Part shown: one piece after another, positions 36,786 through 53,806 of the stretch
Numbering within the stretch: the stretch's first letter is position 1
Layout of the letters: each line of letters begins with the position of its first letter
From: a virus
Length of the DNA stretch: 64,000 nucleotides
Direction: 5' to 3' (one strand)
IMG/VR virus record: IMGVR_UViG_3300001242_000018
Location: 62,001 to 126,000 of that record
Program-made: the position numbers and the translations under genes
The notes under the pieces: generated by a model
Seen by the model: the letters and a program-made list of their open reading frames with translations, nothing else
What the model was told of the DNA's origin: nothing
Database searches by the model: none

Positions 36786-38288
36786 ATGCCTAATATATCA
36801 TATGTCTCTCCACAAACATTAACCAGTGGTGATATAGCTACGATTACCGGTACGGGTTTTGGCGCATCCGGAATGGTATACATCAATGGCTATGAGACTT
36901 CTTACGATTCATGGGCAGATAATAAGATAATACTTACTATACCTTCACGGTTTATAGACCAATCGATGTCCTTTATAGTTAAGACAGAAGTTGGCTACAG
37001 TAACTCGGTCGTTGTTAATATAGCGGCAGTCGGTAATAATCCAATTATAAACAGGATCGATCCAATTGAACCGGACGAAGATAGCTATATAGCTATCTAT
37101 GGGCAAGGTTTTGGTAACGATACTGGAGCCGTTTACATCGGAGGTAGACCAGCTCAATTAGTTACTTGGATGGATACTCGTATAGAGTGTCTATTACCTA
37201 ACAGTATCTCAGAATATGCCGAAGTTATTGTTCAACAATTTACATTAAAGAGTTCTGCCTATCTACTCTGGATTAAGATGTATCCTGTGATTAACGGAAT
37301 TCTAAATCCAGTTGCGGGACAGGAAATGACTATTAACGGTGTAAACTTTAGAGCACAGATGGGTAAGATTTATGTAAACGATATAGAACTTACACCTACT
37401 TATTGGTCAGACAGTAGTATAAGAATAAATCTACCATCGGTAGCAAGAGGACAAGCTACTGTTAAAGTTACTACACTGAGCGGAGTAACTTCTGAGTACT
37501 ATAATTTCCAGATTCATTCTAGTCCTGAGATTATAAGTCACGAGCCGGTCAAGGTTTTACAAGGTAGAGAGTTTACTCTCATTGGAAATGGCTTCTTAGA
37601 CCATGGTAATGTCACCATCAATGGAGTACCATTGATGGTCTTGGAATGGATACCTCCAGACAGGGTTAGAGTAGTTCCGCCAGCCAACTTTACCGGTACT
37701 CAACAGGTTATTGTCGAATGTGATGGATTAGTAAGTCTTCCACACAGCTTAGTAATATCCCCGAACCCTGAAATAAGATCTACCAGTCCGATAAAACCTA
37801 TTCAAAGACAGGTAACGACTGTCTTTGGTGTTAACTTTGGCGAATCTGGGACAATCTTTATTAATAATACTCCTGTAGCTACAGAGTACTGGTCTGATAC
37901 GGAGATATCATTATTCATTCCCTCGACGGTAATTGGTACTATTAAATTCAAGGTACTTACTAGTGGAGAGTTTAGTAATGAATTTATAGCAGATGTAATA
38001 ACCGTAGAAGAAGAAGCGCCTACCTATCATATCTGGAACGAGCCATTAGGAATTATCACGTACCATATGATGATAGAAGAGGATGAGCAATTTCAGGTTA
38101 CTATAGGCGTTCCGTATAAGGTAGGTACAAATGAACTCGCGGTCTATGTAAACGGCAGCCGGCAAAGCCCAATAACCGAGGCAACACCCTGGGGAGCTTA
38201 CGCTGAGACCAATCCTACTACAATCGAATTTGACGAACCACTTATCAAAGGCGATATATTAATACTGGAGATAAGGAGATTTAGCTAA
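36786..38288 (+). CDS. IPT/TIG-repeat fibre protein (500 aa)
   Basis: Five IPT/TIG Ig-like repeats in a row, at about residues 2-79, 86-164, 166-243, 247-325 and 328-406. Each starts with 'I..(I)SP....G....I.G.GF' and a short 'V.ING' strand. The last 85 residues differ and carry 'GTNELAVYVNGSRQS', common at the ends of phage tail-fibre or baseplate proteins. Likely an elongated adhesin on the virion. The stop overlaps the next start (TAATG). Confidence 0.8.
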   Translation: MPNISYVSPQTLTSGDIATITGTGFGASGMVYINGYETSYDSWADNKIILTIPSRFIDQSMSFIVKTEVGYSNSVVVNIAAVGNNPIINRIDPIEPDEDSYIAIYGQGFGNDTGAVYIGGRPAQLVTWMDTRIECLLPNSISEYAEVIVQQFTLKSSAYLLWIKMYPVINGILNPVAGQEMTINGVNFRAQMGKIYVNDIELTPTYWSDSSIRINLPSVARGQATVKVTTLSGVTSEYYNFQIHSSPEIISHEPVKVLQGREFTLIGNGFLDHGNVTINGVPLMVLEWIPPDRVRVVPPANFTGTQQVIVECDGLVSLPHSLVISPNPEIRSTSPIKPIQRQVTTVFGVNFGESGTIFINNTPVATEYWSDTEISLFIPSTVIGTIKFKVLTSGEFSNEFIADVITVEEEAPTYHIWNEPLGIITYHMMIEEDEQFQVTIGVPYKVGTNELAVYVNGSRQSPITEATPWGAYAETNPTTIEFDEPLIKGDILILEIRRFS

Positions 38289-38563
38289 TGTATACGGCTG
38301 CATCTTCTTATGTAGCCTTGAATAGCCAGGGTGCTGAAATAACATGGAAGCCTAGTAGAGCAACTGACTTAGCCGGATATAACATACTGGTATCTAATCG
38401 GCAGGAAGGCCCGTACACAAACTTAAATAAGAATCTTATTACAAGTACTAAGTTTACAACTCCAGAGCTACGCTATGGCTGTTATTACTTTATTGTTACA
38501 GCAGTCGATAAGAGAGGCAATACCAGTATTACATCAGAACCTACAAAGCTTGACATTAAATAA
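38288..38563 (+). CDS. Single fibronectin-III domain protein (91 aa)
   Basis: One FN3 module ('ITWKPSRATDLAGYNILVS' and 'YYFIVTAVDKRGNTSITSEP'). Start overlaps the TIG-gene stop, so the two are translationally coupled and probably work together in the same fibre. The operon ends immediately after with a strong hairpin. Confidence 0.75.
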   Translation: MYTAASSYVALNSQGAEITWKPSRATDLAGYNILVSNRQEGPYTNLNKNLITSTKFTTPELRYGCYYFIVTAVDKRGNTSITSEPTKLDIK

Positions 38564-38705: not shown

Positions 38706-39021
38706 ATGCTAGACGAGTGGAATAACGCATTTAATTGCTGGAGTCGTGCTTGGTAAATTATCGGGATTAGATACTGTCCTAGTTGCAATCGGTAGCCTTC
38801 TCCCGGATGCTGATTGTCGTAATAGTTATGTTGGACGGTTTCTACCAATGTGGTTATTTACCAAACATCGTGGATTCCTTCATACGATTGATGTAGCTTT
38901 AATTCTAATGGTTATTTCGTTTCCACTGGGTTTAGGGTACCTATCTCACCTGGCTCTGGATAGGCATCTTAAATTCAGTAAGTTTACTCATAGGTTCATG
39001 GAATATATAAAACCCTCTTAA
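38706..39021 (+). pseudogene. DUF457/YdjM-like membrane hydrolase, frameshifted or non-AUG start
   Basis: The frame read from 38722 gives 'ITHLIAGVVLGKLSG', then 'GSLLPDADCRNSYVGRFLP' and 'TKHRGFLHT'. This is the metal-binding His/Asp pattern of the DUF457 (LexA-regulated membrane metal hydrolase) family, shortened to about 100 residues. The first His is included only if translation starts before GTG 38746. The well-placed ATG at 38706 (after a G-rich ribosome site) is in another frame and stops after 16 codons. Removing one A near 38721 would join it exactly in frame (MLDEWITHLIAG...). So this is a frameshifted gene, a +1 frameshifting gene, or one started at ATA 38722. Confidence 0.55.
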
Positions 39022-39035
39022 CTTAAGAGGGTTTT
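39009..39035 (+). terminator. Intrinsic terminator
   Basis: AAAACCCTCTT (39009-39019) pairs with AAGAGGGTTTT (39025-39035), five-base loop, followed by a T-rich tail (cttttcttt). Ends the DUF457-like transcript. Confidence 0.85.
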
Positions 39036-39233: not shown

Positions 39234-39452
39234 ATGGATTATATTCAATGCTTTGAAAAGAACTTAGACATGGCTATGAAGACTATGCGAAAGTTTCGTG
39301 AAGAGTGTAGCAAACCTACCAAGATAAATGCTACTAGCGGCAATAGGTTAATCATATACTTAGATGCACTACAGGCTGAGGTTGAAGAGATTAAAGAAGG
39401 TATCAAGGAGGTAAATAGAGGTGAACAAAAGGGGAGTGAAATCGTTAATTAA
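39234..39452 (+). CDS. Small helical protein (72 aa)
   Basis: ATG with ATAGGAGGT upstream. Almost wholly helical; the acidic helix 'ALQAEVEEIKEGIKEV' suggests a coiled coil. First gene of the conjugation-like block. The preceding 200 bases (39036-39233) hold no gene and no promoter I can name with confidence. Confidence 0.6.
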   Translation: MDYIQCFEKNLDMAMKTMRKFREECSKPTKINATSGNRLIIYLDALQAEVEEIKEGIKEVNRGEQKGSEIVN

Positions 39453-39555
39453 AGGTATCATCGTTATCGTTTTGACAATCATCGTTATTACTAATCTTGT
39501 AGCCTCTGTTCCTCATACTACGCAAGAACAGCGGTATCCTATAGTATATTTATAG
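39421..39555 (+). CDS. Single-pass membrane peptide (44 aa)
   Basis: GTG start after AAGGAGG; basic N-terminus (NKRGVKSLIK) then one membrane helix of Ile/Val (about residues 9-30) and a short outside tail. Overlaps the upstream gene by 32 bases. Size and topology recall small membrane subunits of secretion systems, but no family is recognised. Confidence 0.5.
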   Translation: MNKRGVKSLIKGIIVIVLTIIVITNLVASVPHTTQEQRYPIVYL

Positions 39556-39568
39556 GAGGTGTTGATTT

Positions 39569-39883
39569 ATCATTCCGCTATGGCTTATCAAGGGTGTTGT
39601 AATCTTAGGGGTCGGAGCTTTTCTTGGCTCTCACTGCTCTAGTAGTGGTCAGATTCCCGCAAGTAGCCAGGGAAATGGAGATTTACTAAAGAGAGTGCAG
39701 GTTATGCAAGAAGATTACCGTGGGAAAATTGTAAGAGGTGGTATAGGAAAAGAGATTTTCTGGGCTATCGTTAAAGATGGGAAGGTTAAAGAAGTAGAGC
39801 TGCATAATGAATGGGGCCAGATGATTAAAAACAGTGAGGAAGAAGAGTATGTAAAACAGAGTTTAAATGAAAGGAGACTGTAA
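39569..39883 (+). CDS. Membrane-anchored or lipoprotein-like protein (about 104 aa)
   Basis: The frame is open from just after a TGA at 39563 and has a hydrophobic start ('PLWLIKGVVILGVGAFLGSH') followed at once by a Cys and a Ser-rich stretch, like an anchor or lipobox. The soluble part follows. The only ribosome site (AGGAGG, 39554-39559) points to ATC 39569 or ATT 39572. The first standard start in frame, GTG 39695, has no ribosome site and would lose the membrane segment. Part of the conjugation-like block. Confidence 0.5.
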   Translation: MIPLWLIKGVVILGVGAFLGSHCSSSGQIPASSQGNGDLLKRVQVMQEDYRGKIVRGGIGKEIFWAIVKDGKVKEVELHNEWGQMIKNSEEEEYVKQSLNERRL

Positions 39884-39884
39884 T

Positions 39885-40280
39885 ATGAGAATGATAGTAT
39901 GTAATGTGAGAAAGCCTAAACCCAACGTGAAGAAAGTTGAAGAGCTTAAATCTCTCCGTAGATTCTGTGCAATGGCTTTTGTAGCTGTAGAGGCTGTAAA
40001 GTTAACAACACCGGCACCTGTCATGGCAGCGATAAGCGGTAGTACTAAAGCTGCTGCGGCGGCCGCTACCTTCGGAATTGGAGGCCCTGGATTTATCATT
40101 ATAGAGGTTCTTTTGATAGCTATTGTAGGCGGAATTACTGCTACCATAGCCTCTACCATCGGTTATGGCAACGTAGCTAGGCTTCTAGTCTTTATTGGTA
40201 CTATGGTATGCGTAGGACTTATCTGTGACTTAGCTGGAGGTGTTGTTAATAAAGTAATGGACTTTGCGGGGATGTACTAA
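39885..40280 (+). CDS. VirB2/TrbC-like pilin or small membrane protein (131 aa)
   Basis: Start set at the ATG at 39885, after AAGGAGA, rather than 39867. An Ala/Ser-rich stretch (about residues 46-66), 'TFGIGGPGFIIIEVLLIAIV' and a second hydrophobic segment around 95-120 give a two-helix membrane protein like VirB2/TrbC-type conjugative pilins. The basic N-terminus of about 35 residues could serve as leader. The stop overlaps the start of the coupling ATPase (TAATG), the strongest context evidence for a secretion-system role. Confidence 0.5.
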   Translation: MRMIVCNVRKPKPNVKKVEELKSLRRFCAMAFVAVEAVKLTTPAPVMAAISGSTKAAAAAATFGIGGPGFIIIEVLLIAIVGGITATIASTIGYGNVARLLVFIGTMVCVGLICDLAGGVVNKVMDFAGMY

Positions 40281-42892
40281 TGGGAGTAAGTTTAATCATA
40301 GGAGGAGTATTAGGAGCAACTATTACTACCAGTGCCGGCATTAAAGCTATCAGAGATTATATGGTTGGAAAACAAATGGACGACGTATTAACCACCGGAG
40401 TTACAAGGCAGGTATTGGTCGAAAGGAATTCAGAGTTAGGGGCGCAAGCCTTAAAGAATTACTGGGATTCTTTAGGCGTACTTGGTAGATGCGAGGTGCC
40501 AATGCATTTCTCTACTGAATTCCATTTCTCAGAGCATAAAGCTAAGATGATTCAATGGTACCCTCGTAGACTGGATAATACTATGCAGCGAACCTTAAAT
40601 GCCGTGCATAAAGCTGCTGAGTTAAAACCTATTAAAGATCCGTTAACTCTGGATAGATTCAAAGGGCGGTCGGTTAAAGCAATCGAACTTGAATTAGCAA
40701 AGAACTATATCTTCAATATAGAGATGATTCGTGGAGAGAAGATGCCTGGAGACCCTGTAACTAATATAATATCCGCAGGTACAAATTTAGCATCAGGTTG
40801 CGAGGTGATAGTACAGATTTTAACAAGACCGGTATCCGGTAGATATATTGAGAAAGGTAAATTCTATCTCAATAACTATGCAAAAACCCATAGCGAACCT
40901 CTTAAATTAAACAGTAACCTTAAGATGATTACAGAGGTATTCGGGCCTATACTAACACTAGGAAATGCAATTTACATACTAGGTACTAAGAATATACCAG
41001 CACCCAAGTACAGTAACATAGATATTAAAAAGATGAAAGATAAGATTAACAGCGGGATACTATTTGATACCCATATTCGCATTATAGCCATAGCTAGTAA
41101 CGATGCTGTAGCTATGAGTAACTTATCTACTATGGCCAGCGCTTTTGCCACAATAAGTGATGGTAATAGCTTTATAGTAAATAAGGTAAAACCTACGAAT
41201 AAATGGATTGATAACTTCTGTAAAAGAAAGATACCTCCTTATGTAACAGAGAACCTTTTATCAAGTAATGAACTTGCTTATTTTGTACACTTCCCGGATA
41301 AAAGAGTACCCTATGTGGAAAGACTCAAGAGTAAGAAACTACCCGTTCCAGAAGAAGTCCTGACATACAAAACATTCTGGGATGCCATTAACGATAATGC
41401 AATACCATTTGGATACTCTACATTTAGGGGTAGAACTAAATGGCTTGCCTTTAGAGATGTAAAGATGCTAAGACAACATGCTTATATTATAGGAGGTACC
41501 GGTGCTGGTAAGAGTACTATGTTAATATCCATGGCTCTTGCTGTTATTAAAAAAGCCGGACTTACATTCTTTGATGTTAAGGGTACCACTTTGGATAGAT
41601 TTATAGGGTATCTAAATAAGAGTGAAAGAGAGCGTGTCGTATACGTAGACCTCTCTAGTGATGATTTCTTTATACCAATGAATATCATGGCTGTAAGTAT
41701 GCCACCATATGATTTAGCAAACCTAATTGTGGATATATTCATTAGTGCCTTTGGAGAGAAATCCATTCAAGCTCGAAGTCAGAAGGTACTGCGACAGGCT
41801 GTGTTAGCCGTTTCCGTCAATGATAAGAATGGTACCATAATGGAAGTATACCGAATGTTTACTGATAGTAATTATCGTAGAAGAAGATTAGAAGATCTAG
41901 AGAGGTTATACCAACAGGGGAAGTACACAGAAGTTTATGAGTACTGGAAGAAGTTCGTAGGGAAGAAAAATGCTTATGATGACCCGGATGCTCAGCCGAT
42001 TATTAATAAGTTAGAGAAGATTATGCAAAGTACTAGACCTCGTATGATGCTCTCTCAAAGAAGTAACGTTTTAAATTGGGAGAGATTTATGAATGAGAAG
42101 AAGATTGTATTAATCAATCTCAATATAGGGACTAATACTCCTGAAATTCAAAGGCTCTTTGCCACTATGTTAATGACTATGATACGGCAAGATACCTTTA
42201 AAAGGTTAAAAGATGGTCGGCACGAGAATGACAGAGAGACTCATGTTACTATCCTAGACGAATTCGAGGAATTTGCTAAAGATCCTGTTGAGTTTGAAAG
42301 ACTCCTAGCTATGGCTCGTGAATGTGGTAATGGTCTTATCTTAACTCACCAGGCTAAAAGCCAGTTGCCGGATAGGATATTTGATATTATTGCTGATAAT
42401 ACATTTACACAGGTCGCTATGAATATTGGAGACGCTTCGGCCCCGGTTATCTCCAAGATGTTTCCGGGCTTTGAATCTCAGGATATGACGAGCTTTACTT
42501 GTGATATAAACGAAGGACTTGAAGGAGTTTGTAGGATGAAGAAATTATCACCCGAACCCTTCACCTTCTATACTCCTTTATATTGGAAACTGTTTAAGGA
42601 TTACGGAAAGGTTACTGAAACTATTAATAAACTCCATACAAGAGATCATGTGTCAATTATGCAGTGCTTTAGAGATATAGAAGCAAGATACAAGACTACC
42701 AAGGAGGATACGGTAACAGATGCTACCATTCAAAAGCAACCGCAAAATATCAAAGTACGAAAGGATAAACCTAGAGGATCCCTTAAGGCTATACCAGGAG
42801 CTATTAAAAAGTCGAGTACTTCAACCCCGGGATTTGAAGGTTCTGGAGGCGGTATATTACCGCAAATGTGTGATACCAAGACACCTGGGTAG
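40280..42892 (+). CDS. VirD4/TraG-type coupling ATPase
   Basis: 870-residue conjugation-type DNA-translocating ATPase. One hydrophobic N-terminal segment (residues 4-20), a middle domain of about 350 residues, Walker A GGTGAGKST at 405-413, and 'LTFFDVKGTTLDRFIGYL' just after. Walker B is 'VTILDEFEEF' (656-665), followed by the 'GLILTHQAKSQLPD' segment characteristic of type IV coupling proteins. The last 60 residues are low-complexity (Lys/Pro/Gly/Ser) and overlap the next gene. No VirB4, VirB6 or classical relaxase is present in the window, so the module is reduced or its partners lie elsewhere. Confidence 0.8.
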   Translation: MGVSLIIGGVLGATITTSAGIKAIRDYMVGKQMDDVLTTGVTRQVLVERNSELGAQALKNYWDSLGVLGRCEVPMHFSTEFHFSEHKAKMIQWYPRRLDNTMQRTLNAVHKAAELKPIKDPLTLDRFKGRSVKAIELELAKNYIFNIEMIRGEKMPGDPVTNIISAGTNLASGCEVIVQILTRPVSGRYIEKGKFYLNNYAKTHSEPLKLNSNLKMITEVFGPILTLGNAIYILGTKNIPAPKYSNIDIKKMKDKINSGILFDTHIRIIAIASNDAVAMSNLSTMASAFATISDGNSFIVNKVKPTNKWIDNFCKRKIPPYVTENLLSSNELAYFVHFPDKRVPYVERLKSKKLPVPEEVLTYKTFWDAINDNAIPFGYSTFRGRTKWLAFRDVKMLRQHAYIIGGTGAGKSTMLISMALAVIKKAGLTFFDVKGTTLDRFIGYLNKSERERVVYVDLSSDDFFIPMNIMAVSMPPYDLANLIVDIFISAFGEKSIQARSQKVLRQAVLAVSVNDKNGTIMEVYRMFTDSNYRRRRLEDLERLYQQGKYTEVYEYWKKFVGKKNAYDDPDAQPIINKLEKIMQSTRPRMMLSQRSNVLNWERFMNEKKIVLINLNIGTNTPEIQRLFATMLMTMIRQDTFKRLKDGRHENDRETHVTILDEFEEFAKDPVEFERLLAMARECGNGLILTHQAKSQLPDRIFDIIADNTFTQVAMNIGDASAPVISKMFPGFESQDMTSFTCDINEGLEGVCRMKKLSPEPFTFYTPLYWKLFKDYGKVTETINKLHTRDHVSIMQCFRDIEARYKTTKEDTVTDATIQKQPQNIKVRKDKPRGSLKAIPGAIKKSSTSTPGFEGSGGGILPQMCDTKTPG

Positions 42893-43631
42893 TGAATTCT
42901 TTGGTATAGACTCTAATGGTAACCCGAATAAGATCGCAGACATCATAGCTAGGCGGAGGCTTAAACAATATTACCGGTGGCATATAATTGACCGATTCTT
43001 TGTAGACCCTGGGTTAAATAAGGGGAGTTCTCCACAGTATGTAACACTTGATGTTATAGGGGCTATGATACTAGCAGGATGGTGGGGATGTACTATGAAA
43101 GAATTAAAGTGGAAGAAAGAAAGGAATGATGTACAAATACCTTACTTAGCCCATATTATAGAGATTAATAGCTTCAGAGAATGGCTGGTCAATAACGCTA
43201 AGGTAGCGGGCCATCTCCCTGGAGTGTGGAAGGTAGAGCATCATAATTATGTATCGTTTGAAATGGATGAACTTAATTATAGGTTAGAGCCGGATGGGTA
43301 TTGTCAGTACTGGTTTAATAAAGAAGATGGGTTCCATTTCTTTTACGAGCACGATAGAGGAACGATGTCTTTAAAGCAGTGGAAGGAGAAAATAGCCAGG
43401 TATCAATTGTATTTTGATAGCCGGCATTGGCAGAAAGACAGTGAGTTACAATTCCCGATCGTATTATGTACTACAACAACATGGAAACGTACTGAAGAGC
43501 TTTCTGCGTTATGTGCGGAAACAAATGTAGTCTGGTTCTTTACCTCTTACGAGAATGGATTTACAGACGAATGGATCGAGAGTAGTACCGAAGGAAAAAT
43601 ACAGTTATTCAATACGAAAGACGGGGCTTAA
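42720..43631 (+). CDS. Replication-relaxation family protein
   Basis: Matches the Replic_Relax family (PF13814 type). N-terminal winged-helix stretch 'LQPRDLKVLEAVYYRKCVIP' (about residues 34-53); core 'YRLEPDGYCQYWF' and 'FHFFYEHDRGTMSLKQWKEK', where the family has a PD...ElDrgt...K pattern. These proteins are usually next to TraG/VirD4 genes on conjugative plasmids of Bacillota and Actinobacteria. The start at 42720 has AAGGAGG 12 bases upstream and makes a 173-base overlap with the coupling protein, whose disordered tail is written in the other frame. Confidence 0.75.
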   Translation: MLPFKSNRKISKYERINLEDPLRLYQELLKSRVLQPRDLKVLEAVYYRKCVIPRHLGSEFFGIDSNGNPNKIADIIARRRLKQYYRWHIIDRFFVDPGLNKGSSPQYVTLDVIGAMILAGWWGCTMKELKWKKERNDVQIPYLAHIIEINSFREWLVNNAKVAGHLPGVWKVEHHNYVSFEMDELNYRLEPDGYCQYWFNKEDGFHFFYEHDRGTMSLKQWKEKIARYQLYFDSRHWQKDSELQFPIVLCTTTTWKRTEELSALCAETNVVWFFTSYENGFTDEWIESSTEGKIQLFNTKDGA

Positions 43632-43642
43632 TTGCTCCCGTC
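43620..43642 (+). terminator. Hairpin at end of conjugation-like operon
   Basis: GACGGG (43620-43625) pairs with CCCGTC (43637-43642), with inner GC pairing and a short T-run (ttt) after. Lies at the end of the plus-strand block where transcription meets the minus-strand genes. Confidence 0.6.
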
Positions 43643-45929: not shown

Positions 45930-46006
45930 TGGTCGGGATGGAGGGATTTGAACCCCCGATTTCCTGTTCCCAAAACAGGCGCCTTACCAAGCTAGGCCAC
46001 ATCCCG
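45930..46006 (-). tRNA. tRNA-Pro (anticodon UGG)
   Basis: Complete cloverleaf: acceptor CGGGATG/CATCCCG, anticodon stem CCTGT/ACAGG with loop TTTGGGA, T-arm with GGTTCAAAT, and an encoded CCA. Last tRNA of the cluster. Confidence 0.9.
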
Positions 46007-46009
46007 ACA

Positions 46010-46146
46010 ATGACCGGGGAGATAGGAAGACCCGGTCAAAGTGTCGAAGCACTAAGTTAGTACTGTTTTGACATACTTATCGATGCCGGGTACAGCCCGA
46101 AACCCAACTACTTCAAGGTGTAGTCAATCCTGCCTTATTAATAAGG
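46010..46146 (-). ncRNA. Inter-tRNA structured element C
   Basis: About 140 bases between tRNA-Ile and tRNA-Pro with no ORF. It contains several hairpins on the minus strand: a 16-base palindrome (GCCTTATTAATAAGGC), ACTAC/GTAGT, CGGG/CCCG, GTCAAA/TTTGAC enclosing AGTG/CACT, and finally GACCGGG/CCCGGTC (46012-46018 / 46031-46037) next to the tRNA-Pro 5' end. tRNA processing would release it as a separate RNA. No known family recognised; single copy. Confidence 0.4.
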
Positions 46147-46149
46147 CTC

Positions 46150-46224
46150 TGGTGGGCCCTAAGAGATTCGAACTCCCAACCAACCGGTTATGAGCCGGAT
46201 GCTCTACCATTGAGCTAAAGGCCC
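46150..46224 (-). tRNA. tRNA-Ile2 (anticodon CAU, reads AUA after lysidine)
   Basis: Body GGGCCTTTAGCTCA... with anticodon loop CTCATAA matches bacterial tRNA-Ile2, whose C34 is changed to lysidine by host TilS, better than elongator Met. Encoded CCA. Fits a genome rich in AUA codons. Confidence 0.75.
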
Positions 46225-46408
46225 TTAAATAAGTTTCATATCAAATTCCATTGTTATAACAAATACTAATTTTCTTTTAATTGTCATCTTTAATTCCTTC
46301 CAACTGTAATAATAATTGTAAAAGTGCTTTCGTATATGAAATATTACATTCTATCGGGTTATTGATTCTTCTAAATGCTTTACCGATAGATTTTAAATTA
46401 CAAATCCT
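46225..46408 (-). other. AT-rich tRNA spacer with two doubtful ORFs
   Basis: Between tRNA-Ile2 and the small gene at 46411. One frame (46277-46408) is open for 43 codons and looks protein-like (e.g. IGKAFRRINNPIECNISY) but has no ATG, GTG or TTG start. A 20-codon ATG frame (46225-46287) has GGAAGG upstream and ends exactly at the tRNA. Either could be a remnant; I see no RNA fold here. Confidence 0.3.
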
Positions 46409-46410
46409 AT

Positions 46411-46560
46411 CTAAACATCTTTAGGAACGAAATTTACATTTCCTATAGCCTCTTCGAGCATATCTTTTTCAATGCCAGACATAACAAATACATATACACC
46501 ATCTAATTCACTACTATTATTAGAACAATTATAATGACTTTTTGCGAATATATTATTCAC
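46411..46560 (-). CDS. Small protein in tRNA cluster (46-49 aa)
   Basis: Small frame ending '...SGIEKDMLEEAIGNVNFVPK' and a few more residues. GTG 46560 is fused to the AAGGAG ribosome site; the properly spaced codon (eight bases on) is ATA at 46551. No family recognised. Confidence 0.4.
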   Translation of the reverse strand: MNNIFAKSHYNCSNNSSELDGVYVFVMSGIEKDMLEEAIGNVNFVPKDV

Positions 46561-46598
46561 TCCTTAAAGTTCATTAAATCATCACCTAAATTAATTTT

Positions 46599-46679
46599 TG
46601 GTCGGGATGGAGAGATTCGAACCCTAAATCACTGGTACGGGCTTAAACCGTATGTCTCTACCAATTGGGCTACACCCGG
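46599..46679 (-). tRNA. Unusual class-I tRNA with anticodon UAA (copy a)
   Basis: Anticodon stem TACGG/CCGTA, loop TTTAAGC, so anticodon UAA (UUA codon). It lacks the long variable arm normal for bacterial tRNA-Leu and has G37 rather than A37. One acceptor mismatch; encoded CCA; 3' end nearly the same as in the tRNA-Pro. Close relative at 48676-48753. Confidence 0.6.
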
Positions 46680-46710
46680 AAGATGATCGGTTACAACCTA
46701 TTACTCATCT

Positions 46711-47013
46711 TTAGATCTCCATCCAGTTACTAAACTCAGAATCTTGCTCTAAACCTTTAGAAATAAGTAATTTTACAAGAGTGGGTATGTCTCTATCAAT
46801 CATAGATTCAAAAGAAGAATCCGCTAAACTTACTAAAGAAAGTTCATCTAATATGGGATTAAGTATATCCCACTCTTCTTTGGTATAACTATCAGTAAGA
46901 TAATGATAATTATTCCAACATTCTTTAGTATTGATCGTAACTACAATTAAATCTGGTTCATCTGGAAACGTACATACATGAAATATAAATTTATTTGTAT
47001 CTATAAATATCAC
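46711..47013 (-). CDS. Hypothetical protein in tRNA cluster (97-100 aa)
   Basis: Soluble alpha/beta protein; the frame is open upstream into the fMet tRNA, so the start must lie near 47013. GTG 47013 overlaps the AAAGGAG ribosome site; the codon with normal spacing (eight bases) is ATA 47004. Contents such as 'YTKEEWDILNPILDELS' give no family. Inserted between two tRNA genes like the neighbouring small ORFs. Confidence 0.5.
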   Translation of the reverse strand: MIFIDTNKFIFHVCTFPDEPDLIVVTINTKECWNNYHYLTDSYTKEEWDILNPILDELSLVSLADSSFESMIDRDIPTLVKLLISKGLEQDSEFSNWMEI

Positions 47014-47025
47014 TCCTTTAATGTT

Positions 47026-47101
47026 TGGTTGCGAGTGCCGGACTCGAACCGGCAACCTCCAGTTTATGAAACTGACGAGCTTCCAATTGCTCCAACCTGC
47101 G
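47026..47101 (-). tRNA. Initiator-type tRNA-fMet (CAU)
   Basis: Has the bacterial initiator marks: C1-A72 mismatch, A11-U24 pair in the D-stem (GAGC/GCTC), loop TTCATAA and an end reading CGCAACCA. The three G-C pairs normally at the base of the initiator anticodon stem are missing: the stem reads TCAGT/ACTGG instead of TCGGG/CCCGA. Confidence 0.8.
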
Positions 47102-47105
47102 ATAA

Positions 47106-47233
47106 TGCTGCAATTTAGTGGACTACGTGTACCTTAATCCGTGATAGATCCTTTACCCATATTAGCAGATATATTACATCAGCTTATGGAGTTATATCAC
47201 TGGTTAAAGTCGCGCCGTTTGCAGCTGCCACTA
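47106..47233 (-). ncRNA. Inter-tRNA structured element A, copy 1
   Basis: Lies between the Pro-like tRNA and the fMet tRNA. Shares a 27-base identical block (47106-47132) and a 20-base block with one change (47212-47231) with copy 2 at 48757-48870. On the minus strand TAGTGG and GCTGCAA at one end can pair with CCACTA and TTGCAGC at the other in A-B-A'-B' order, i.e. a pseudoknot. The unique middle forms its own long stem (CTTTAA/TTAAGG, GTGATA/TATCAC). See findings. Confidence 0.55.
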
Positions 47234-47248
47234 CAGGGCGTGAAGCCC
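47234..47248 (-). other. Small hairpin before Pro-like tRNA
   Basis: AGGGC / GCCCT stem with a five-base loop between element A copy 1 and the 3' end of the UAG-anticodon tRNA; perhaps a processing signal. Confidence 0.35.
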
Positions 47249-47250
47249 TC

Positions 47251-47327
47251 TGGTCTGGGTGGAGAGATTTGAACTCCCAGTTACCTGCTCCTAAAGTAGG
47301 CGCCTTACCAAACTAAGCTACATCCCG
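47251..47327 (-). tRNA. Pro-derived class-I tRNA with anticodon UAG
   Basis: The body closely matches the phage tRNA-Pro (45930), but the loop reads TTTAGGA, so the anticodon is UAG (CUA leucine codon). Two acceptor mismatches (G2-A71, A5-C68) and one in the anticodon stem; encoded CCA. Either a tRNA-Pro gone astray or a recruited leucine tRNA without the class-II arm. Confidence 0.6.
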
Positions 47328-47391
47328 AGGAGGCCCAAGGGTCGCAACTCCTTGAGCACATGATAAAGTGGTTGGGATCAGCAGTTATCCC

Positions 47392-47476
47392 TGGCGGAGG
47401 GTACAGGAGTCGAACCCGCTAGGCTTTTACACCTCGACTGTTTTCAAGACAGCTTACCACCGTTGGCCTACCCTCC
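47392..47476 (-). tRNA. tRNA-Ser (anticodon UGA)
   Basis: Class-II tRNA: acceptor GGAGGGT/ACCCTCC, discriminator G, CCA encoded, anticodon loop CTTGAAA and long variable arm. Confidence 0.9.
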
Positions 47477-47616
47477 GTAATGCAATGGCTTTTATTCGCT
47501 TAGTTAATTGTTCCGGTATGCTAAAGCCATTAAAATATCAACCGTCTACAATTTAATACTGGCGGAGACAGAGGGAGAATCGACTTATAAATTGCGACTC
47601 TCCATGATTCCATAAA
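47477..47616 (-). other. Spacer with tRNA-like 3' remnant
   Basis: About 140 bases, no gene. Holds an inverted repeat AATGGCTTT/AAAGCCATT, a GGAGA/TCTCC hairpin and, on the minus strand, a tRNA-3'-end-like sequence (TGTCTCCGCCA) with no matching 5' half. Probably debris of a lost tRNA. Confidence 0.4.
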
Positions 47617-47632
47617 TGGCGGAAGGTATAGG
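47617..47632 (-). repeat. Orphan 3' end of tRNA-Ser(GCU), with CCA
   Basis: GCGGAAGGTATAGG (47619-47632) is an exact copy of the 3' end of the tRNA-Ser(GCU) gene at 48081-48094 and continues into an encoded CCA that the intact gene lacks. The HNH gene lies exactly between the two copies, like an insertion into the tRNA 3' end. Confidence 0.75.
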
Positions 47633-47635
47633 CCC

Positions 47636-48070
47636 TTATAATACATGTTTCCATATTAAACGATTCTTTATATCAGATATTACACTGTGATGTATTTCAA
47701 ATAATCTTCCTAATTCTCTAATACCATAGCCATTACTAAGTAAACATCTAATATATACAACCTGTTTTTCATTAAGTTTTGCATTAACATGATTAGAACC
47801 CTTTATACTAGGTCTATTTCTCATCTTTTCTCTAGTTGATTCGGGTAATTTCTTACCAAGCATATGTAATCTACTATGTTCTTTTCTTGTGGTCAATTCT
47901 AAATTACTAGGTTCATTATTTCCTTTACATTCATCTTTGTGATGAACAATTTCAGAACTAAGTAACTCTCTACCAAGTTTTGCTTCCATAACTAATCTAT
48001 GTTCGTTATTGGTGGTATTTTTGTTTATTCTAATCTTTTTATATTTATTAGAAATAATAATCACCACCAA
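47636..48070 (-). CDS. HNH homing endonuclease with C-terminal DNA-binding part
   Basis: 144 residues. HNH core: 'NNEHRLVMEAKLGRELLSSE', then 'IVHHKDECKGNNEPSNLEL' and 'TTRKEHSRLH', the HNH_3 pattern with His-His and Asn. C-terminal 'LNEKQVVYIRCLLSNGYGIR' and 'ISDIKNRLIWKHV' resemble the helix-turn-helix targeting domain of such enzymes. Sits inside the tRNA cluster, flanked by the duplicated tRNA 3' end. Start is unclear: TTG 48070 overlaps the only ribosome site (GGTGGTGAT), whose normal spacing points at ATT 48055. Confidence 0.8.
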   Translation of the reverse strand: MVVIIISNKYKKIRINKNTTNNEHRLVMEAKLGRELLSSEIVHHKDECKGNNEPSNLELTTRKEHSRLHMLGKKLPESTREKMRNRPSIKGSNHVNAKLNEKQVVYIRCLLSNGYGIRELGRLFEIHHSVISDIKNRLIWKHVL

Positions 48071-48081
48071 TTAGTTTAGAG

Positions 48082-48166
48082 CGGAAGGTATAGGATTTGA
48101 ACCTATGCAGGTGTTACCCTGGCCTTTGATTAGCAATCAAGCACATTACCGCTCTGTCAACCTTCC
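48082..48166 (-). tRNA. tRNA-Ser (anticodon GCU)
   Basis: Class-II tRNA with acceptor GGAAGGT/ACCTTCC, loop TTGCTAA and long variable arm. No CCA is encoded here (GCTC follows); the CCA-bearing copy of the 3' end lies beyond the HNH gene. Confidence 0.85.
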
Positions 48167-48167
48167 A

Positions 48168-48245
48168 GTCATTCAGTGTGCCAGTCTTAAGTGGGTTCCA
48201 TTGGGCACACTGAATATTGTATGTGAGCTCTAGAGATATGCCAAC
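48168..48245 (-). ncRNA. Inter-tRNA structured element B, copy 1
   Basis: Fills the gap between tRNA-Tyr and tRNA-Ser(GCU). On the minus strand: a GTTGGCA start, a GCTCACA block, then a 12-bp stem (48171-48182 / 48204-48215) whose 3' side abuts the tRNA-Ser 5' end. Copy 2 at 48950-49026 keeps the same blocks, with a compensating pair change in the stem. Confidence 0.5.
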
Positions 48246-48256
48246 TCTAATACTTA

Positions 48257-48342
48257 TGGTGGAAGAGGTAGGATTTGAACCTACGAAGTTGTTACACGGC
48301 AGATTTACAGTCTGCTCCCATTAACCACTCGGGCACTCTTCC
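48257..48342 (-). tRNA. tRNA-Tyr (anticodon GUA)
   Basis: Class-II tRNA: acceptor GGAAGAG/CTCTTCC, anticodon stem GCAGA/TCTGC with loop CTGTAAA, long variable arm, encoded CCA. Confidence 0.92.
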
Positions 48343-48345
48343 ATG

Positions 48346-48426
48346 ATAACGGTTTCAGGGGAGGGATTCGAACCCACGACCTTCAGGGTATGAACCTGAC
48401 AAGCTACCTCTACTCAGCGTCGTTAT
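48346..48426 (-). tRNA. tRNA-Met elongator-like (CAU), degenerate ends
   Basis: Anticodon arm TCAGG/CCTGA with loop TTCATAC and a T-arm GTGGGTTCGAATCCC look sound, but the usual 7-bp acceptor cannot be formed and no CCA follows. Instead ATAACG/CGTTAT (48346-48351 / 48421-48426) closes the molecule with extra unpaired bases. May be a decaying gene or may need trimming and end repair. Confidence 0.5.
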
Positions 48427-48503
48427 GGAAGGGGAAGTAGGATTCGAACCTACGAATGTACGGATCAAAACCGTATGCCTTAGACCAACTTAGCTACACC
48501 CCT
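48426..48503 (-). tRNA. tRNA-Gln (anticodon UUG)
   Basis: Anticodon stem TACGG/CCGTA with loop TTTTGAT, T-arm GTAGG/CCTAC, acceptor AGGGGTG/TTCCCCT with one mismatch, encoded CCA. Confidence 0.85.
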
Positions 48504-48654
48504 ACATATTTATAAAGTGTATTACAATATCTAAGAAACTTAAGTCTTTAAATTCCCAAAATAATAATTCATTACATTCTATGCATGGAATTAATTCATA
48601 AAATTCTATATCGCAATTTCCATACAAACAAGTTGAACATGATTTCTTAGACAT
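48502..48654 (-). CDS. Cys-rich mini-protein (50 aa)
   Basis: ATG 48654 with AAGGTGATGAT upstream. Cys at C-S-T-C, Y-G-N-C and C-I-E-C suggest a zinc knuckle. Stop overlaps the tRNA-Gln 5' end by two bases. One of four protein genes sitting between tRNAs. Confidence 0.55.
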   Translation of the reverse strand: MSKKSCSTCLYGNCDIEFYELIPCIECNELLFWEFKDLSFLDIVIHFINM

Positions 48655-48675
48655 TATATCATCACCTTATATTAT

Positions 48676-48753
48676 TGGTATCGGTGGAGGGACTTGAACC
48701 CATCACTGGTACGGGCTTAAACCGTATGTCTCTGCCAATTGGACTACACCGAC
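48676..48753 (-). tRNA. Unusual class-I tRNA with anticodon UAA (copy b)
   Basis: Anticodon arm identical to copy a (TACGG, TTTAAGC, CCGTA), acceptor GTCGGTG/CACCGAT, encoded CCA, no long variable arm, weak D- and T-stems. Expected to read UUA if charged. Confidence 0.6.
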
Positions 48754-48756
48754 ATG

Positions 48757-48870
48757 TGCTGCAATTTAGTGGACTACGTGTACTTCTTGAGGATAGATTC
48801 TCTAGTCCACTTTAATAAATAAACTAGAGAATCTATCCGAACAAGAAGCAGCGCCGCTTGCAGCTGCCAC
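48757..48870 (-). ncRNA. Inter-tRNA structured element A, copy 2
   Basis: Occupies the whole gap between tRNA-Asn and the UAA tRNA (copy b), three bases from each. Ends match copy 1 (27-base identical block at 48757-48783; second block at 48851-48870). The middle is a near-perfect 22-bp hairpin: CTTCTTG (48783-48789) with CAAGAAG, and a 15-bp stem 48791-48805 / 48824-48838. Middle sequence is unrelated to copy 1, yet both form a stem at the same place. Confidence 0.6.
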
Positions 48871-48872
48871 AT

Positions 48873-48947
48873 TGGCAGGGAAAGCTGGATTCGAACCAGC
48901 AACATACGGATTAACAGTCCGCCGTTCTACCATTGAACTATATCCCT
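48873..48947 (-). tRNA. tRNA-Asn (anticodon GUU)
   Basis: Anticodon stem GCGGA/TCCGT with loop CTGTTAA, D-stem GTTC/GAAC, T-arm GCTGG/CCAGC, discriminator G, encoded CCA. Confidence 0.9.
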
Positions 48948-50169: not shown

Positions 50170-50427
50170 CTACATGTCAATACCCATTTCACTTATATAC
50201 TTCAAGTTCATCACGGTAGTAAGGATAGGGTAATAAAGACAAGTACCGCAATTTGCTATTATAGCATTAGTATATTGAGGTACTATTCTACCTTTACTAT
50301 CTTTTAATATCTTCTTGGGATTTAACTTCCAACTCTTACAACACCTATCCAAACCCATTACACGTACTTCATACTCGTTCGAGTCTAGCACGGTGTCCTG
50401 ATTAGAGCATGTATTATTTTCACACAT
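50170..50427 (-). CDS. Cys-rich small protein (85 aa)
   Basis: Seven Cys residues, with pairs at MCENNTC, RCC and NCGTC; may bind metal or be redox active. Overlaps the end of nrdD by eight bases, so it is co-expressed with it. It is not the NrdG activase: no CxxxCxxC radical-SAM motif. Confidence 0.5.
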   Translation of the reverse strand: MCENNTCSNQDTVLDSNEYEVRVMGLDRCCKSWKLNPKKILKDSKGRIVPQYTNAIIANCGTCLYYPILTTVMNLKYISEMGIDM

Positions 50428-53400
50428 GAGGTATGCGATCTGTCTCTTCCGCTACTTTTGCGTCATTGAAGCGCTCAAGTGTTGAAATGTACCCTGTTAT
50501 TCTGCGAATCCTATCTATCTTATCTCTTTCTCCACATACAGGACAGGGTTCTCCATGTGGTATTATATTATTATGAGTACCACAGGACTTGCACAAATCT
50601 ACTGGATAATTAACAGCAGCGTAACCCATATCGCAAGCGGCCATGTGTAATACTATATTCTCAATAGCATCGATATTGTGTTGCGGCATACTTTCGAATT
50701 CAATGTAACTCATGTGGCCACCATTGCAATATTTATGGAATGGCCCCTCTATTGCTATTTTATCATAATAGCTAATAGGATAATCAACCGGTACATGATA
50801 ACTGTTTGTATAGTATTTCTTATCAGTCGCTCCGGGAATTGTCCCAAACTCTTCACGGTCAAGTTTGGTAAACCTACCCGATAAACCTTCTGCCGGAGTA
50901 GCAATAACAGAGAAGTTAAGGTCGTATTTCTCGCATGCTTCATCGGCTATCTTGCGAATATAAGATATAATTTTATGACCCAGGGCCAGTGCATTTGTAC
51001 TTTCAGCATGATACTTACCTACAAGTACTTTCAAACATTCAGCTAAACCAATAAAGCCTAGTGTAAGTGTACCATGCCTAGCAGCTAGATAGATACTATC
51101 TTCTGGATTTAATTTGTCAGCATCCCTGTATAAGTCTTGACCAATTAGGAAAGGAAAGTCTTTAGCCTTTAATGTACATATATATTCAAAACGATGCATG
51201 AGCTGCCGTACTATAAGGTTTAATACTTCATTATGCAATTCAAAGAAGTAACTTAACCTGGCATCTGTATCATCAGGATGCTTTAACATAGCCTTTATAG
51301 CTAGTCTGGGTAAATTCTCTGTGGTAAACCCTACGTTTCCTCTCTCAATTGTAGTAGATTCTCCATGACGGTCGGCTACTACACGGGTACGACAACCCAT
51401 ATAAGAGATATCTCCGTCTTTATTAAAACTACTGTCGCAGAATACCCAACTAGGATTGAGCCGTTTAGCTGAAACTTCCTGTGCCAAACGAAATAGGTGA
51501 TAGTACGGATCCGACTTATGCATATTAACGCCGCTCTTAATCTTAAAGCAAACGTTAGGAAATATCGGTTGCTCGCCATTCCCTAAACCGGCTTTAAAAG
51601 CTCTTAAGAACCATTCACAGATCTTAGCAGCATCGGGACTTTGCACATTACCTATGTTGATAGAAGAGAAAGGGATCTGCCCCCCTCCCCTGCTGTTATG
51701 AACGAAGATACACTCGGCTGTCAAGAATGTTTCATTATCTTCTACAGATAAATCGTAGACGTATTCATCACCACTGTTAGACTCAAGACATTGATTAATA
51801 GAAACGGGGAATACGTTAGTAGCGGCCCCGAGTCGTTTGTCTGTCATAGCATATATATCTATTTCATGGGGCTTAATCTTCTTATACTGGATTAGCTTAT
51901 TGTTTTCTTTGATTAGAGATTTCAGAAATTCGTAGTCGTAATGCTTTTGTTCATACATAACCTTACAACCAAACTCTAATCCTAATCTATTCTCCGCAAT
52001 TCCACTAATAGATATCTCATAATTGAGTGATGTACCGTAATTCGAACTGGTAGTTCTCTCGGCTATATGAGGAAGCTCACGCAACCTTAAAAGCATGAGA
52101 TTTAACTCATTGCGTAATCTCTTACTTACAGTGGTAGCTATAATATAGTTCTCTTTAATACTACCGTCACATTTGAAGTACCCATTAAGGAATGATATAA
52201 GTACTTCATCTTCTGCAAACAAGATCTCTACAGGAATATGTTTAGTATAAGCGTCATAGCCGAACTTGTCTTTAAACATATCGGCCCATACCTTACCTAC
52301 ATTAAACCGTATATCCTTCGGTTTACCGATAGGTGTAGGATAACGATTATAAGTAATATTCTCTCCATAACATTGCTGCATAAGAGAGATTAACTCATCT
52401 TCTTTATTAGTAGAACATACTGTAAAGCAGAGTTGAGATCCTCCTACTACACTACCTTCAGCCACATAATAACCAGCTATCTTGGCAAACTCCATAGTTA
52501 CTACAATATGATCATCTAAGTAGTTTTGAACTTTTCGTGAATGATAATGATCTAAACCGATATCGCCTCTAACCGGTGGGAGATCGATACCTCTTGGAGA
52601 TAAAACATGATTCAATGTTTCTGGGAACCTGCCAGTTACATTACCGTAGTCATCCATACACATAGTAACATGATTATCGGTAGTAGTATTTTTCCTACCT
52701 TCATTGTCAATAAGAGTAATAAGTCTACGGTTATTATCTTTCTTACTGACACTTGTAATATACTTCATCTCTGCCTTACCAGTCACATGGTTAAGACTGA
52801 TAGTTTGATACCGATTGGGTTCAAAGATTTCAGCCAATTTGCCAATAGCTATCTGTAAGAGTTCTTCTTCGACAGTATCGTATATCCAAATCTCCTGACT
52901 ATACGGCAAGCAATGCATCGTGTTAAGGTTATAGATTAAAGCCTCCATAGCTTGGAATCCTTTATGATCGAGTATTCTTTCTACCTGAGTATCAATGGCT
53001 TCCGGATCTAATTCGTTAAAGTTCTTACCTGTAAGTTCTACGCCATACCGTAAATCACGACGTATCTTCTCCCGTTGTTGCTCCATTATTCCGGTCGCGA
53101 CGAACTGATTATCGAAATCCGGATAACTTTGACCGCCGTACATCTCATTCTGATTTGCCTGGATAATTATGCTCGCATGCATAGCAGCGGTCTTTAAGCT
53201 ACGGGCTGGACGGATAAAGCCATGGCCGGTATTAAATCCATGAGCAGCTAGTTTCTCATAAGGTATTTGACAGCAATTGAGTCCTTTGCCATACCAAGCT
53301 TTATCATGGATATGGATGTCTCCATTATCATGTGCCTCACTAAACTCTCGAGGTATTACTCTCTTACCGTAAAAATACCCAGATGCGGCTTCGGATATCT

Positions 53401-53806
53401 GAAGTACCTTACCAGCCATAGTGGGCCCTACATTAGCATTATCCTTTGTAGCTTCTCGGTCGATATCCCGGATTACATCCATTAGATCATCCTTACCTTC
53501 GCGTAGGGCAGCTCGTCGTTCTCTATATACGGCATATCTTCTAGATACTTTCCAGTATCCTGCGACGCAAAGAGTCTGCTCAACAACGTCCTGGATGGTT
53601 TCTATATCAATGATCTTTTCATCCGGCAATTGTTCAATTACCTTACTTATTAATAACGTAAGACATTGATCTTCATAAGGTATCTCACTGGCAATAAAAG
53701 CTTTCTGTATTGCCATACGAATTTTCTCAGGATACCATTCTGCTAGTGTTTCACCATCACGTTTACGTACATAAGGTGTTGACACATTAATCGCTCTCCT
53801 TCTCAT
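50420..53806 (-). CDS. nrdD: Anaerobic (class III) ribonucleoside-triphosphate reductase with intein
   Basis: Makes dNTPs from NTPs by a glycyl-radical mechanism in anaerobic cells. N-terminal ATP-cone (about residues 10-100), then the barrel, with an intein at 299-704. Joining the flanks restores the expected '...LNTMH' + 'SRGGGQIPFSSINIGN'. The C-terminus has two Cys pairs for zinc ('CKSCG', 'CPVCG') and the glycyl-radical motif RITGY with Gly1105. Spliced length would be 722, normal for NrdD. The NrdG activase is not visible in this window; the host or another part of the phage must supply it. Confidence 0.93.
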   Translation of the reverse strand: MRRRAINVSTPYVRKRDGETLAEWYPEKIRMAIQKAFIASEIPYEDQCLTLLISKVIEQLPDEKIIDIETIQDVVEQTLCVAGYWKVSRRYAVYRERRAALREGKDDLMDVIRDIDREATKDNANVGPTMAGKVLQISEAASGYFYGKRVIPREFSEAHDNGDIHIHDKAWYGKGLNCCQIPYEKLAAHGFNTGHGFIRPARSLKTAAMHASIIIQANQNEMYGGQSYPDFDNQFVATGIMEQQREKIRRDLRYGVELTGKNFNELDPEAIDTQVERILDHKGFQAMEALIYNLNTMHCLPYSQEIWIYDTVEEELLQIAIGKLAEIFEPNRYQTISLNHVTGKAEMKYITSVSKKDNNRRLITLIDNEGRKNTTTDNHVTMCMDDYGNVTGRFPETLNHVLSPRGIDLPPVRGDIGLDHYHSRKVQNYLDDHIVVTMEFAKIAGYYVAEGSVVGGSQLCFTVCSTNKEDELISLMQQCYGENITYNRYPTPIGKPKDIRFNVGKVWADMFKDKFGYDAYTKHIPVEILFAEDEVLISFLNGYFKCDGSIKENYIIATTVSKRLRNELNLMLLRLRELPHIAERTTSSNYGTSLNYEISISGIAENRLGLEFGCKVMYEQKHYDYEFLKSLIKENNKLIQYKKIKPHEIDIYAMTDKRLGAATNVFPVSINQCLESNSGDEYVYDLSVEDNETFLTAECIFVHNSRGGGQIPFSSINIGNVQSPDAAKICEWFLRAFKAGLGNGEQPIFPNVCFKIKSGVNMHKSDPYYHLFRLAQEVSAKRLNPSWVFCDSSFNKDGDISYMGCRTRVVADRHGESTTIERGNVGFTTENLPRLAIKAMLKHPDDTDARLSYFFELHNEVLNLIVRQLMHRFEYICTLKAKDFPFLIGQDLYRDADKLNPEDSIYLAARHGTLTLGFIGLAECLKVLVGKYHAESTNALALGHKIISYIRKIADEACEKYDLNFSVIATPAEGLSGRFTKLDREEFGTIPGATDKKYYTNSYHVPVDYPISYYDKIAIEGPFHKYCNGGHMSYIEFESMPQHNIDAIENIVLHMAACDMGYAAVNYPVDLCKSCGTHNNIIPHGEPCPVCGERDKIDRIRRITGYISTLERFNDAKVAEETDRIPHV
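51695..52912 (-). mobile_element. Intein with LAGLIDADG homing endonuclease in NrdD
   Basis: 406 residues: Cys299 first (CLPYSQEIWIYD), block-B-like T-x-x-H ('TTDNHVTM'), end 'FVHN' followed by Ser705. The middle holds two LAGLIDADG-type helices, 'KIAGYYVAEGS' (442-452) and 'LISFLNGYFKCDGSI' (536-550), so it should be an active or recently active homing element. Confidence 0.9.

Follow-up and report, generated by a model that had tools for sequence, protein, structure and literature searches.

The window analysed here is a stretch of 64,000 nucleotides from a viral record (IMGVR_UViG_3300001242_000018, positions 62,001 to 126,000). The core of the module consists of three open reading frames (ORFs) at 39,885–43,631, which encode a two-helix membrane protein, an ATPase of the FtsK/HerA superfamily and a PF13814 (Replic_Relax) protein. 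An ORF check found the frames described in an earlier, sequence-only reading of this DNA to be in place. All features given below lie on the + strand. The upstream border is marked by a terminator-like perfect inverted repeat (39009..39035; 12-pair stem) with a T-rich tail, CTTTTCTTTA, which was recognized by match to the consensus only. It is followed by a 72-residue ORF (39234..39452) with a good ribosome-binding site (Shine–Dalgarno AGGAGG), a probably soluble product and a weak match to phrog_4884 (0.0038); whether this ORF belongs to the module is uncertain. A small protein of 44 residues (39421..39555; Shine–Dalgarno AAGGAGG) has one transmembrane helix, with a hydropathy peak of 2.7 at residues 12–30. 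The next small ORF (39695..39883) is listed from the sequence with 62 residues. Its frame is open upstream to 39572, behind GGAGGTG; should translation begin there at a rare ATT codon, the product would have an additional hydrophobic helix at its N-terminus. The module ends at a terminator-like hairpin (43623..43638) where the gene direction switches, and the GC skew changes sign at about 44 kb. The module is located where gene blocks of opposite orientation meet. Virion genes lie on one side of it and replication and nucleotide-metabolism genes on the other, so that it is well inside a phage genome and not at a join to a plasmid or chromosome, the artefact against which the sequence-only reading had cautioned.

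The likeliest start of the two-helix protein (39885..40280; 131 residues) is the ATG at 39885, not position 39867, with the Shine–Dalgarno-like GAAAGGAG ahead of it. From hydropathy and sequence, the protein has a basic N-terminus, a hydrophobic signal-like stretch and two C-terminal transmembrane helices. Its stop codon overlaps the start of the ATPase gene in a shared TAATG, in agreement with the translational coupling proposed earlier. A hydrophobic leader and two transmembrane helices beside an ATPase gene are as expected of a TrbC/VirB2 pilin, a likeness of topology only. The ORF gave no match to PF04956 (TrbC) or PF18895 (T4SS_pilin) in a profile search. Direct homology to phage TrbC-like proteins was sought and was not detectable (hhalign probability 0.9%). 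In many phages the gene directly 5′ of the ATPase encodes a two-helix protein, and some of these match TrbC/VirB2-pilin profiles; the equivalent proteins in L042 and L013 match PF18895 or PF04956. The TrbC/VirB2-like label therefore rests on position, as the proteins in the same place in some relatives match these profiles; of the original description, the two helices and the place beside the ATPase stand, and a profile match of the protein's own is missing.

The ATPase (40280..42892; 870 residues) was assigned from Pfam, PHROG, Foldseek and tree results as a coupling-protein-like DNA pump of the phrog_5156 family (3.2e-53). Walker A (GGTGAGKST, residues 405–413; 41492..41518) and Walker B (TILDE, residues 657–661; 42248..42262) are both intact, with Gly410, Lys411 and Glu661 invariant in an alignment of 15 sequences. 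The protein passes the Pfam cut-offs for DUF87/HerA (31.8 versus 23.2 bits, 2e-7) and TrwB_AAD_bind (PF10412; 25.4 versus 20.5 bits, 8.3e-6), and is just under that for T4SS-DNA_transf (PF02534; 19.4 versus 20.1 bits); for NF045973 it scores 27.9 bits against a cut-off of 250 that is not reached. The CedB profile is matched at 5.3e-5. In a Foldseek search with the predicted model, the hits included the VirB4 protein TrwK (1.7e-12), HerA (7e-8) and TrwB (1.7e-6). The Walker motifs together with the HerA-type profile and fold place the protein in the FtsK/HerA superfamily. Its N-terminal region of about 390 residues has one weak helix (residues 3–21), whereas VirD4/TraG coupling proteins have two; the coupled small protein may provide the membrane helices that are lacking. 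The description as a full-length VirD4/TraG ATPase thus appears to be partly right: PF10412 is passed, but PF02534 is missed; Pfam indicates HerA/TrwB, and the fold as predicted most resembles VirB4 and HerA.

Two other identities were considered for the ATPase and rejected. VirB4 proteins lie on their own side of a branch with 100/100 support and TIGR00929 gives 11.2 versus 643 bits, despite which the fold search puts VirB4 first. A packaging terminase or FtsK, which the sequence-only reading had named as the outcome that would count against it, does not fit either, since profiles and folds point to HerA/TrwB/VirB4 and the FtsK match is below the cut-off. In the tree, the ATPase forms a group with those of plasmids and of phage G and falls outside the main phage clade. 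The plasmids concerned, from Bacillus, Staphylococcus and Embleya, encode a separate VirB4 next to this ATPase.

The gene for the 303-residue PF13814 protein (42720..43631; Shine–Dalgarno AAGGAGG) overlaps the ATPase gene by 173 nucleotides. A replication-relaxation protein was thus correctly placed after the ATPase: PF13814 is passed with 56.6 versus 25.3 bits (4.7e-15; 57.2 bits in the genome search), and phrog_9381 is matched at 6.9e-23. The CONJscan name for PF13814 is MOBC (MobC) relaxase (PMC5357655). A relaxase-family protein is therefore present, and the earlier statement that the module has no relaxase is wrong at the family level. The candidate catalytic residues Pro191-Asp192, Glu210, (Asp212) and Lys224 (43290..43391) were located in alignments. 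Pro191, Asp192, Glu210 and Lys224 are invariant in eight divergent phage and plasmid homologues, and Asp192, Glu210, Asp212 and Lys224 in A11, so that the P-D…E…K arrangement of a PD-(D/E)XK-type nuclease is intact. The N-terminus is also conserved in relatives. MOBC relaxases have a restriction-endonuclease fold, and TraX in addition has an N-terminal winged helix (PMC12857230). The predicted model (pLDDT 61) has a winged helix at the N-terminus and then a PD-(D/E)XK-like core, which is the expected order; in the structure search a MarR-type winged helix was matched only at E = 0.009, and the nuclease part had no significant Foldseek match. MOBC-type catalysis by this protein is thus suggested by its residues and predicted domain order. 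CloDF13 was tried as a sequence yardstick for MOBC and left out, as the mob frames in its record are broken.

As the sequence-only reading had anticipated, no VirB4 was found in the record, either with four VirB4 proteins as phmmer queries or in other searches; as controls, the ATPase and Replic_Relax queries did give matches. VirB6 and VirB8 were not seen in the record, which may be incomplete, and the VirB4 and mating-pore genes of a self-transmissible conjugative element are therefore missing from it. The record has no recognizable oriT, and near the module there is no oriT-like array of direct repeats, only two-copy repeats of a kind that is often due to chance. Neither a tyrosine integrase (PF00589) nor a homologue of the relatives' ParA, ParG or Xer was found in the record. 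The phage-plasmid suggested earlier is thus not supported here, although in relatives, among them PJN02 and BcoS-136, partition and Xer genes do adjoin the module.

A search for the module in other phages, as had been proposed, found the ATPase–PF13814 pair in SPO1 (gp27.4/27.3), phage G and FADO/PJN02-type phages. The 12 related phage records that were compared, two of them from the nearest isolated phages and ten of them viral contigs, all lack the module, which was therefore probably acquired. This absence and the tree position of the ATPase argue for lateral acquisition, as in the captured plasmid segment of the sequence-only reading. No high-identity sibling phages were found, and nothing was found on scanning bacterial genomes with conserved patterns. 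The PJN02-type PF13814 gene always has an adjoining ATPase gene (25 of 25 phage records). PF13814 is missing beside the ATPase homologue in many phages, and the relaxase is thus not always needed. On plasmids, the pair adjoins VirB4 and Tcp or PrgI genes, and PF03432 and PF02486 relaxases are absent from these plasmids. A pWBG749-type relaxase was rejected as an explanation for the staphylococcal plasmids: that system relies on a MOBP relaxase (PMC4652767), and the plasmid examined has no PF03432.

We interpret the module, with a probability of about one half, as a laterally acquired, conjugation-derived unit for processing and pumping DNA. To judge from the sequence, it comprises an intact FtsK/HerA-type motor of a lineage found on plasmids next to a separate VirB4, an intact nuclease of the PF13814/MOBC-relaxase family with a putative N-terminal DNA-binding domain, and a small two-helix membrane protein coupled to the motor gene. 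The PF13814 protein would bind and nick a site on the phage's own DNA, the small proteins would hold the hexameric ATPase at the membrane, and the ATPase would then take the nicked DNA and translocate it at or through the membrane, by analogy with MobB/MobC of CloDF13 or with TdtA and its nuclease in Thermus transjugation. Transfer of phage DNA between cells is a more tentative proposal and on balance doubtful; it would go via the channel of a helper, because no VirB4, VirB6 or VirB8 was seen in the record. Conjugal transfer is hard to picture for SPO1, which keeps both genes, since that phage is virulent. That phages of Bacillota use a stripped-down type IV secretion-derived machine, made of a VirB2-like two-helix protein, a VirB4/VirD4-like ATPase and an optional MOBC relaxase, to carry the genome between cells, or into the forespore, with no virion involved seems improbable as a whole.

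The ATPase could instead form a HerA–nuclease complex that degrades or processes DNA within the cell (host chromosome, rival elements or replication intermediates) with no transfer. Its matches to PADLOC mad8 (1.2e-15), several HerA models and the TdpA and DptH profiles, the DUF4297-HerA and SIR2-HerA defence complexes among its Foldseek matches and the PD-(D/E)XK-like partner are consistent with such a complex. It is nevertheless unlikely, as small membrane proteins are conserved directly 5′ of the ATPase, some with TrbC/VirB2-pilin profiles, the plasmid pairs sit in conjugation operons and the PF13814 protein has a winged helix, as in relaxases. The FtsK/SpoIIIE/HerA superfamily membership also suggests a role in segregation or delivery of the phage genome in the host: the genome would be anchored at the membrane, partitioned as an extrachromosomal prophage or in a carrier state, or pumped into the forespore, much as SpoIIIE pumps the chromosome. 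Partition genes (usually with recombinases) adjoin the ATPase in PJN02, BcoS-136, MMB025 and D6E, and the hosts of nearly all ATPase-bearing phages are spore-forming Bacilli; but this host restriction may reflect only phylogeny or sampling, no partition or integrase genes were found in the record and SPO1 is virulent, which makes this role distinctly unlikely.

A recently captured plasmid fragment with no function would account for the absence from the 12 related records and for the location at the junction of opposed gene blocks. This is very unlikely given that catalytic residues, ribosome-binding sites, coupling and overlap are all intact, and strong purifying selection acts on the homologous pairs of SPO1-type phages (dN/dS of about 0.02 for both genes between SPO1 and Goe16). 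The probability is slight that the module is an exclusion device, in which a coupling-type ATPase and a pilin-like protein block or hijack the conjugation machinery of resident plasmids, as the sequence-only reading had suggested. The closest ATPases are those of plasmids, so that interplay with plasmid type IV secretion parts is conceivable, but a relaxase-like nuclease would be superfluous.

If the conjugation-derived module works like its plasmid source parts, then a conjugation relaxase-plus-pump is encoded by phages, the textbook phage SPO1 among them, and the boundary between transduction and conjugation is blurred. In addition, 66 plasmids at present typed as non-mobilizable bear a PF13814 protein of this family.

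Similar, almost unstudied pairs are already known in Bacillus viruses such as SPO1, to which the window module is an unusual addition. In SPO1 (gp27.4–gp27.3), Goe16, CampHawk and SP8, as in the window, an ATPase of the same family lies directly 5′ of the PF13814 protein and small transmembrane proteins, shorter in these phages, precede the pair; the proteins are 17–24% identical to those of the window, and the SPO1-like ATPases fall in the main phage clade, with that of the window outside it. According to a 2022 paper on Tyrovirus (Thrax phages), gp17–gp18 are a type IV secretion ATPase and replication-relaxation pair with an origin put to capture from a conjugative plasmid; PF13814 is not identified as MOBC in the passages concerned (PMC9703825). 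The same pair as in the window occurs in Tyrovirus and in the Bacillus phages PJN02, FADO and BcoS-136, there beside partition genes and a Xer recombinase, none of which was found in the record of the window. An M23 peptidase also adjoins the pair in BcoS-136 and was not found in the record. The plasmid types NRS6116_2, NAS_AN_109 and Embleya NBC_00896 share the ATPase–PF13814 gene order and have the nearest ATPases in the tree, but they also encode VirB4, Tcp or PrgI proteins, and two of them a peptidoglycan hydrolase; the window module has none of these. CloDF13 MobB is the coupling protein of a mobilizable plasmid, with MobC as its partner. In class 8 streptococcal IMEs a PF13814 relaxase is paired with a VirD4 coupling protein (PMC5357655). 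Like the window module, both CloDF13 and these IMEs have a coupling protein of their own and a MOBC relaxase but no mating-pair apparatus; they are proven or presumed to be mobilizable, whereas the window ATPase is not a typical VirD4. VirB4/HerA-like ATPases act with a VirB2-like two-helix protein in archaeal Ced/Ted DNA import (PMC9905601) and with a nuclease in Thermus TdtA transjugation (PMC5365140); these are cellular or ICE systems, and the sequence kinship seen with the window module goes no further than the ATPase superfamily.

The module lies between two terminator-like hairpins (39,009–39,035 on the left and 43,623–43,638 on the right), at a point where the genes change direction and GC skew changes sign, with its genes coupled and its motifs intact. 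It consists of further small ORFs, a two-helix protein (131 aa; 39,885–40,280), an ATPase (870 aa; 40,280–42,892) and a PF13814 protein (303 aa; 42,720–43,631). The end of the two-helix ORF is shared with the ATPase start (TAATG). The ATPase and PF13814 genes overlap out of frame by 173 nt (42720–42892), a stretch encoding the unconserved ATPase tail and the conserved PF13814 N-terminus. The overlap is most likely real, because the PF13814 start has a strong Shine–Dalgarno sequence and the N-terminus could be aligned with relatives.

PF13814 is assigned to the MobC (MOBC) relaxases in CONJscan, and in streptococcal mobilizable elements it is paired with a VirD4 coupling protein (PMC5357655). 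The sequence-only reading, which had stated that no relaxase was present, was therefore wrong, and from its family membership the protein is a putative relaxase. MOBC relaxases have a restriction-endonuclease fold, TraX with an N-terminal winged helix (PMC12857230). Residues P191, D192, E210 and K224 are invariant among phage and plasmid homologues. In the low-confidence model a winged-helix part, as expected, precedes a core of helix, strands, helix and strand; a structure search with the nuclease part gave no significant match.

The ATPase scores above the Pfam cut-offs for DUF87/HerA and TrwB_AAD_bind, belongs to PHROGs family 5156 (of unknown function) and is weakly similar to CedB, an ATPase of archaeal DNA import, and to VirD4 of the CD1115 type. 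It was modelled in AlphaFold2 with 21 input sequences (confidence approximately 80–90 across much of the motor domain and 61 overall). The nearest solved structure is the VirB4 protein TrwK (E = 1.7e-12, nearly full length), followed by HerA and then the coupling protein TrwB. The earlier label VirD4 is thus right in part, since TrwB_AAD_bind is above the cut-off but VirB4 and HerA structures are nearer. In a maximum-likelihood tree a 100/100 branch divides the family from true VirB4 proteins. The window ATPase groups with those of plasmids and of phage G and not with the other phages, which form a well supported clade; long branches make its precise position uncertain.

The two-helix ORF matched no profile, and homology to its counterparts in relatives could not be detected. 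Among the fetched loci, the ATPase gene of many phages is immediately preceded by genes for small transmembrane-helix proteins, which have a hydrophobic leader and two-helix hairpin in L013, L017, L020, L011, L042, L043, L044, L048 and L050. Those of several relatives match TrbC/VirB2 (9.5e-6 and 2e-5, slightly under the cut-off) and T4SS_pilin (1.9e-6, over the cut-off). Position and topology therefore make the earlier TrbC/VirB2-like guess reasonable, though sequence does not prove it.

The window covers positions 62,001–126,000 of a 137,036-base viral record; the remainder was read in pieces and ORFs were called throughout. It represents a contractile-tailed phage (tail sheath phrog_16991) with virion genes at the left, sigma factors and replication and repair genes (primases, DnaB, RuvC, RecA and UvrD). 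Moorella phage MTATph1 and Bacillus phage KLEB27-3 have virion proteins just 22–29% identical to its own. A search for end repeats found none in the record, which may be partial. Left of the module, a surface-like protein with five TIG domains precedes a 91-aa ORF similar to a fibronectin type III domain (36786–38563 for the two), and a YdjM-family membrane protein (38746–39021) comes next. Directly to its right are 11 tRNA genes (45930–48947, − strand), among them an HNH-like ORF (47636–48070); short + strand ORFs here look like tRNA antisense artefacts. The anaerobic ribonucleotide reductase NrdD (50420–53806, − strand) is split by a LAGLIDADG intein.

With an SPO1-type query, the ATPase family was found in 68 of 50,697 phage records, nearly all from phages of spore-forming Bacilli; members include SPO1 gp27.4, phage G gp156 and FADO/PJN02-type phages. 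The ATPase gene adjoins the PJN02-type PF13814 gene in all 25 phage records having the latter, and D6E-type phages carry the ATPase without PF13814. Strong purifying selection acts on both genes between SPO1 and Goe16 (dN/dS approximately 0.02, with synonymous sites close to saturation). In Bacillus, Staphylococcus and Embleya plasmids the pair adjoins VirB4 and Tcp or PrgI genes, and PF03432 and PF02486 relaxases are absent from those records. Of 68 plasmids that encode a PF13814 protein of the staphylococcal type, MOB-suite typed 66 as non-mobilizable, and it thus seems to overlook MOBC-like relaxases. In phage G a VirB4-like protein (CD1110 family, 3.3e-51) is directly upstream of the ATPase (gp155–gp156; L016 6180–10322) and a PF13814 gene lies close by; no other phage here has as full a type IV-like set. 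BcoS-136 (L014) and PJN02 (L015) carry ATPase and PF13814, and Alicyclobacillus phage MMB025 (L018) the ATPase, within plasmid-like blocks with partition proteins, an annotated M23 peptidase and a recombinase, plus a 50-aa helix protein in L014 and L015. The gene directly downstream of the MMB025 ATPase, in the place of PF13814 elsewhere, matches the NsnA defence model (1.6e-27; L018 6485–7555).

This kind of module is known but unstudied. A 2022 report on Tyrovirus phages of Bacillus describes a type IV secretion protein and a replication-relaxation protein adjoining ParM/ParG, and proposes capture from a conjugative plasmid (PMC9703825); the ATPase is already annotated as VirD4-like or type IV secretory in the records of SP8 and D6E. 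New here are the identification as MOBC, the pilin-like neighbour that recurs, the placement of the window copy on the plasmid side and the occurrence in an unrelated contractile-tailed lineage.

MTATph1, KLEB27-3 and ten related viral contigs, of which some are fragments, all lack the module, so it was probably acquired here as an accessory. The sequence-only reading was largely right in what it observed; of its interpretations (a phage-plasmid able to mobilise, a captured plasmid segment or a reused ATPase), acquisition is the part made probable. The best-supported mechanism is that a relaxase-like nuclease would nick a site on phage DNA, which a membrane-held hexameric ATPase would then pump; the nicking, its target, the membrane complex and the direction of transport are predicted. 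Rival readings would make the module a DNA-processing complex of the HerA–nuclease type, a device for segregation or forespore delivery, one for exclusion, or a fragment carried passively.

VirB4 and pore proteins were not found in the phage record, so that the module would allow at most helper-mediated mobilisation, or the pump would be used inside the cell. CloDF13 is mobilised through a helper, and by analogy the phage could be mobilised in the same fashion.
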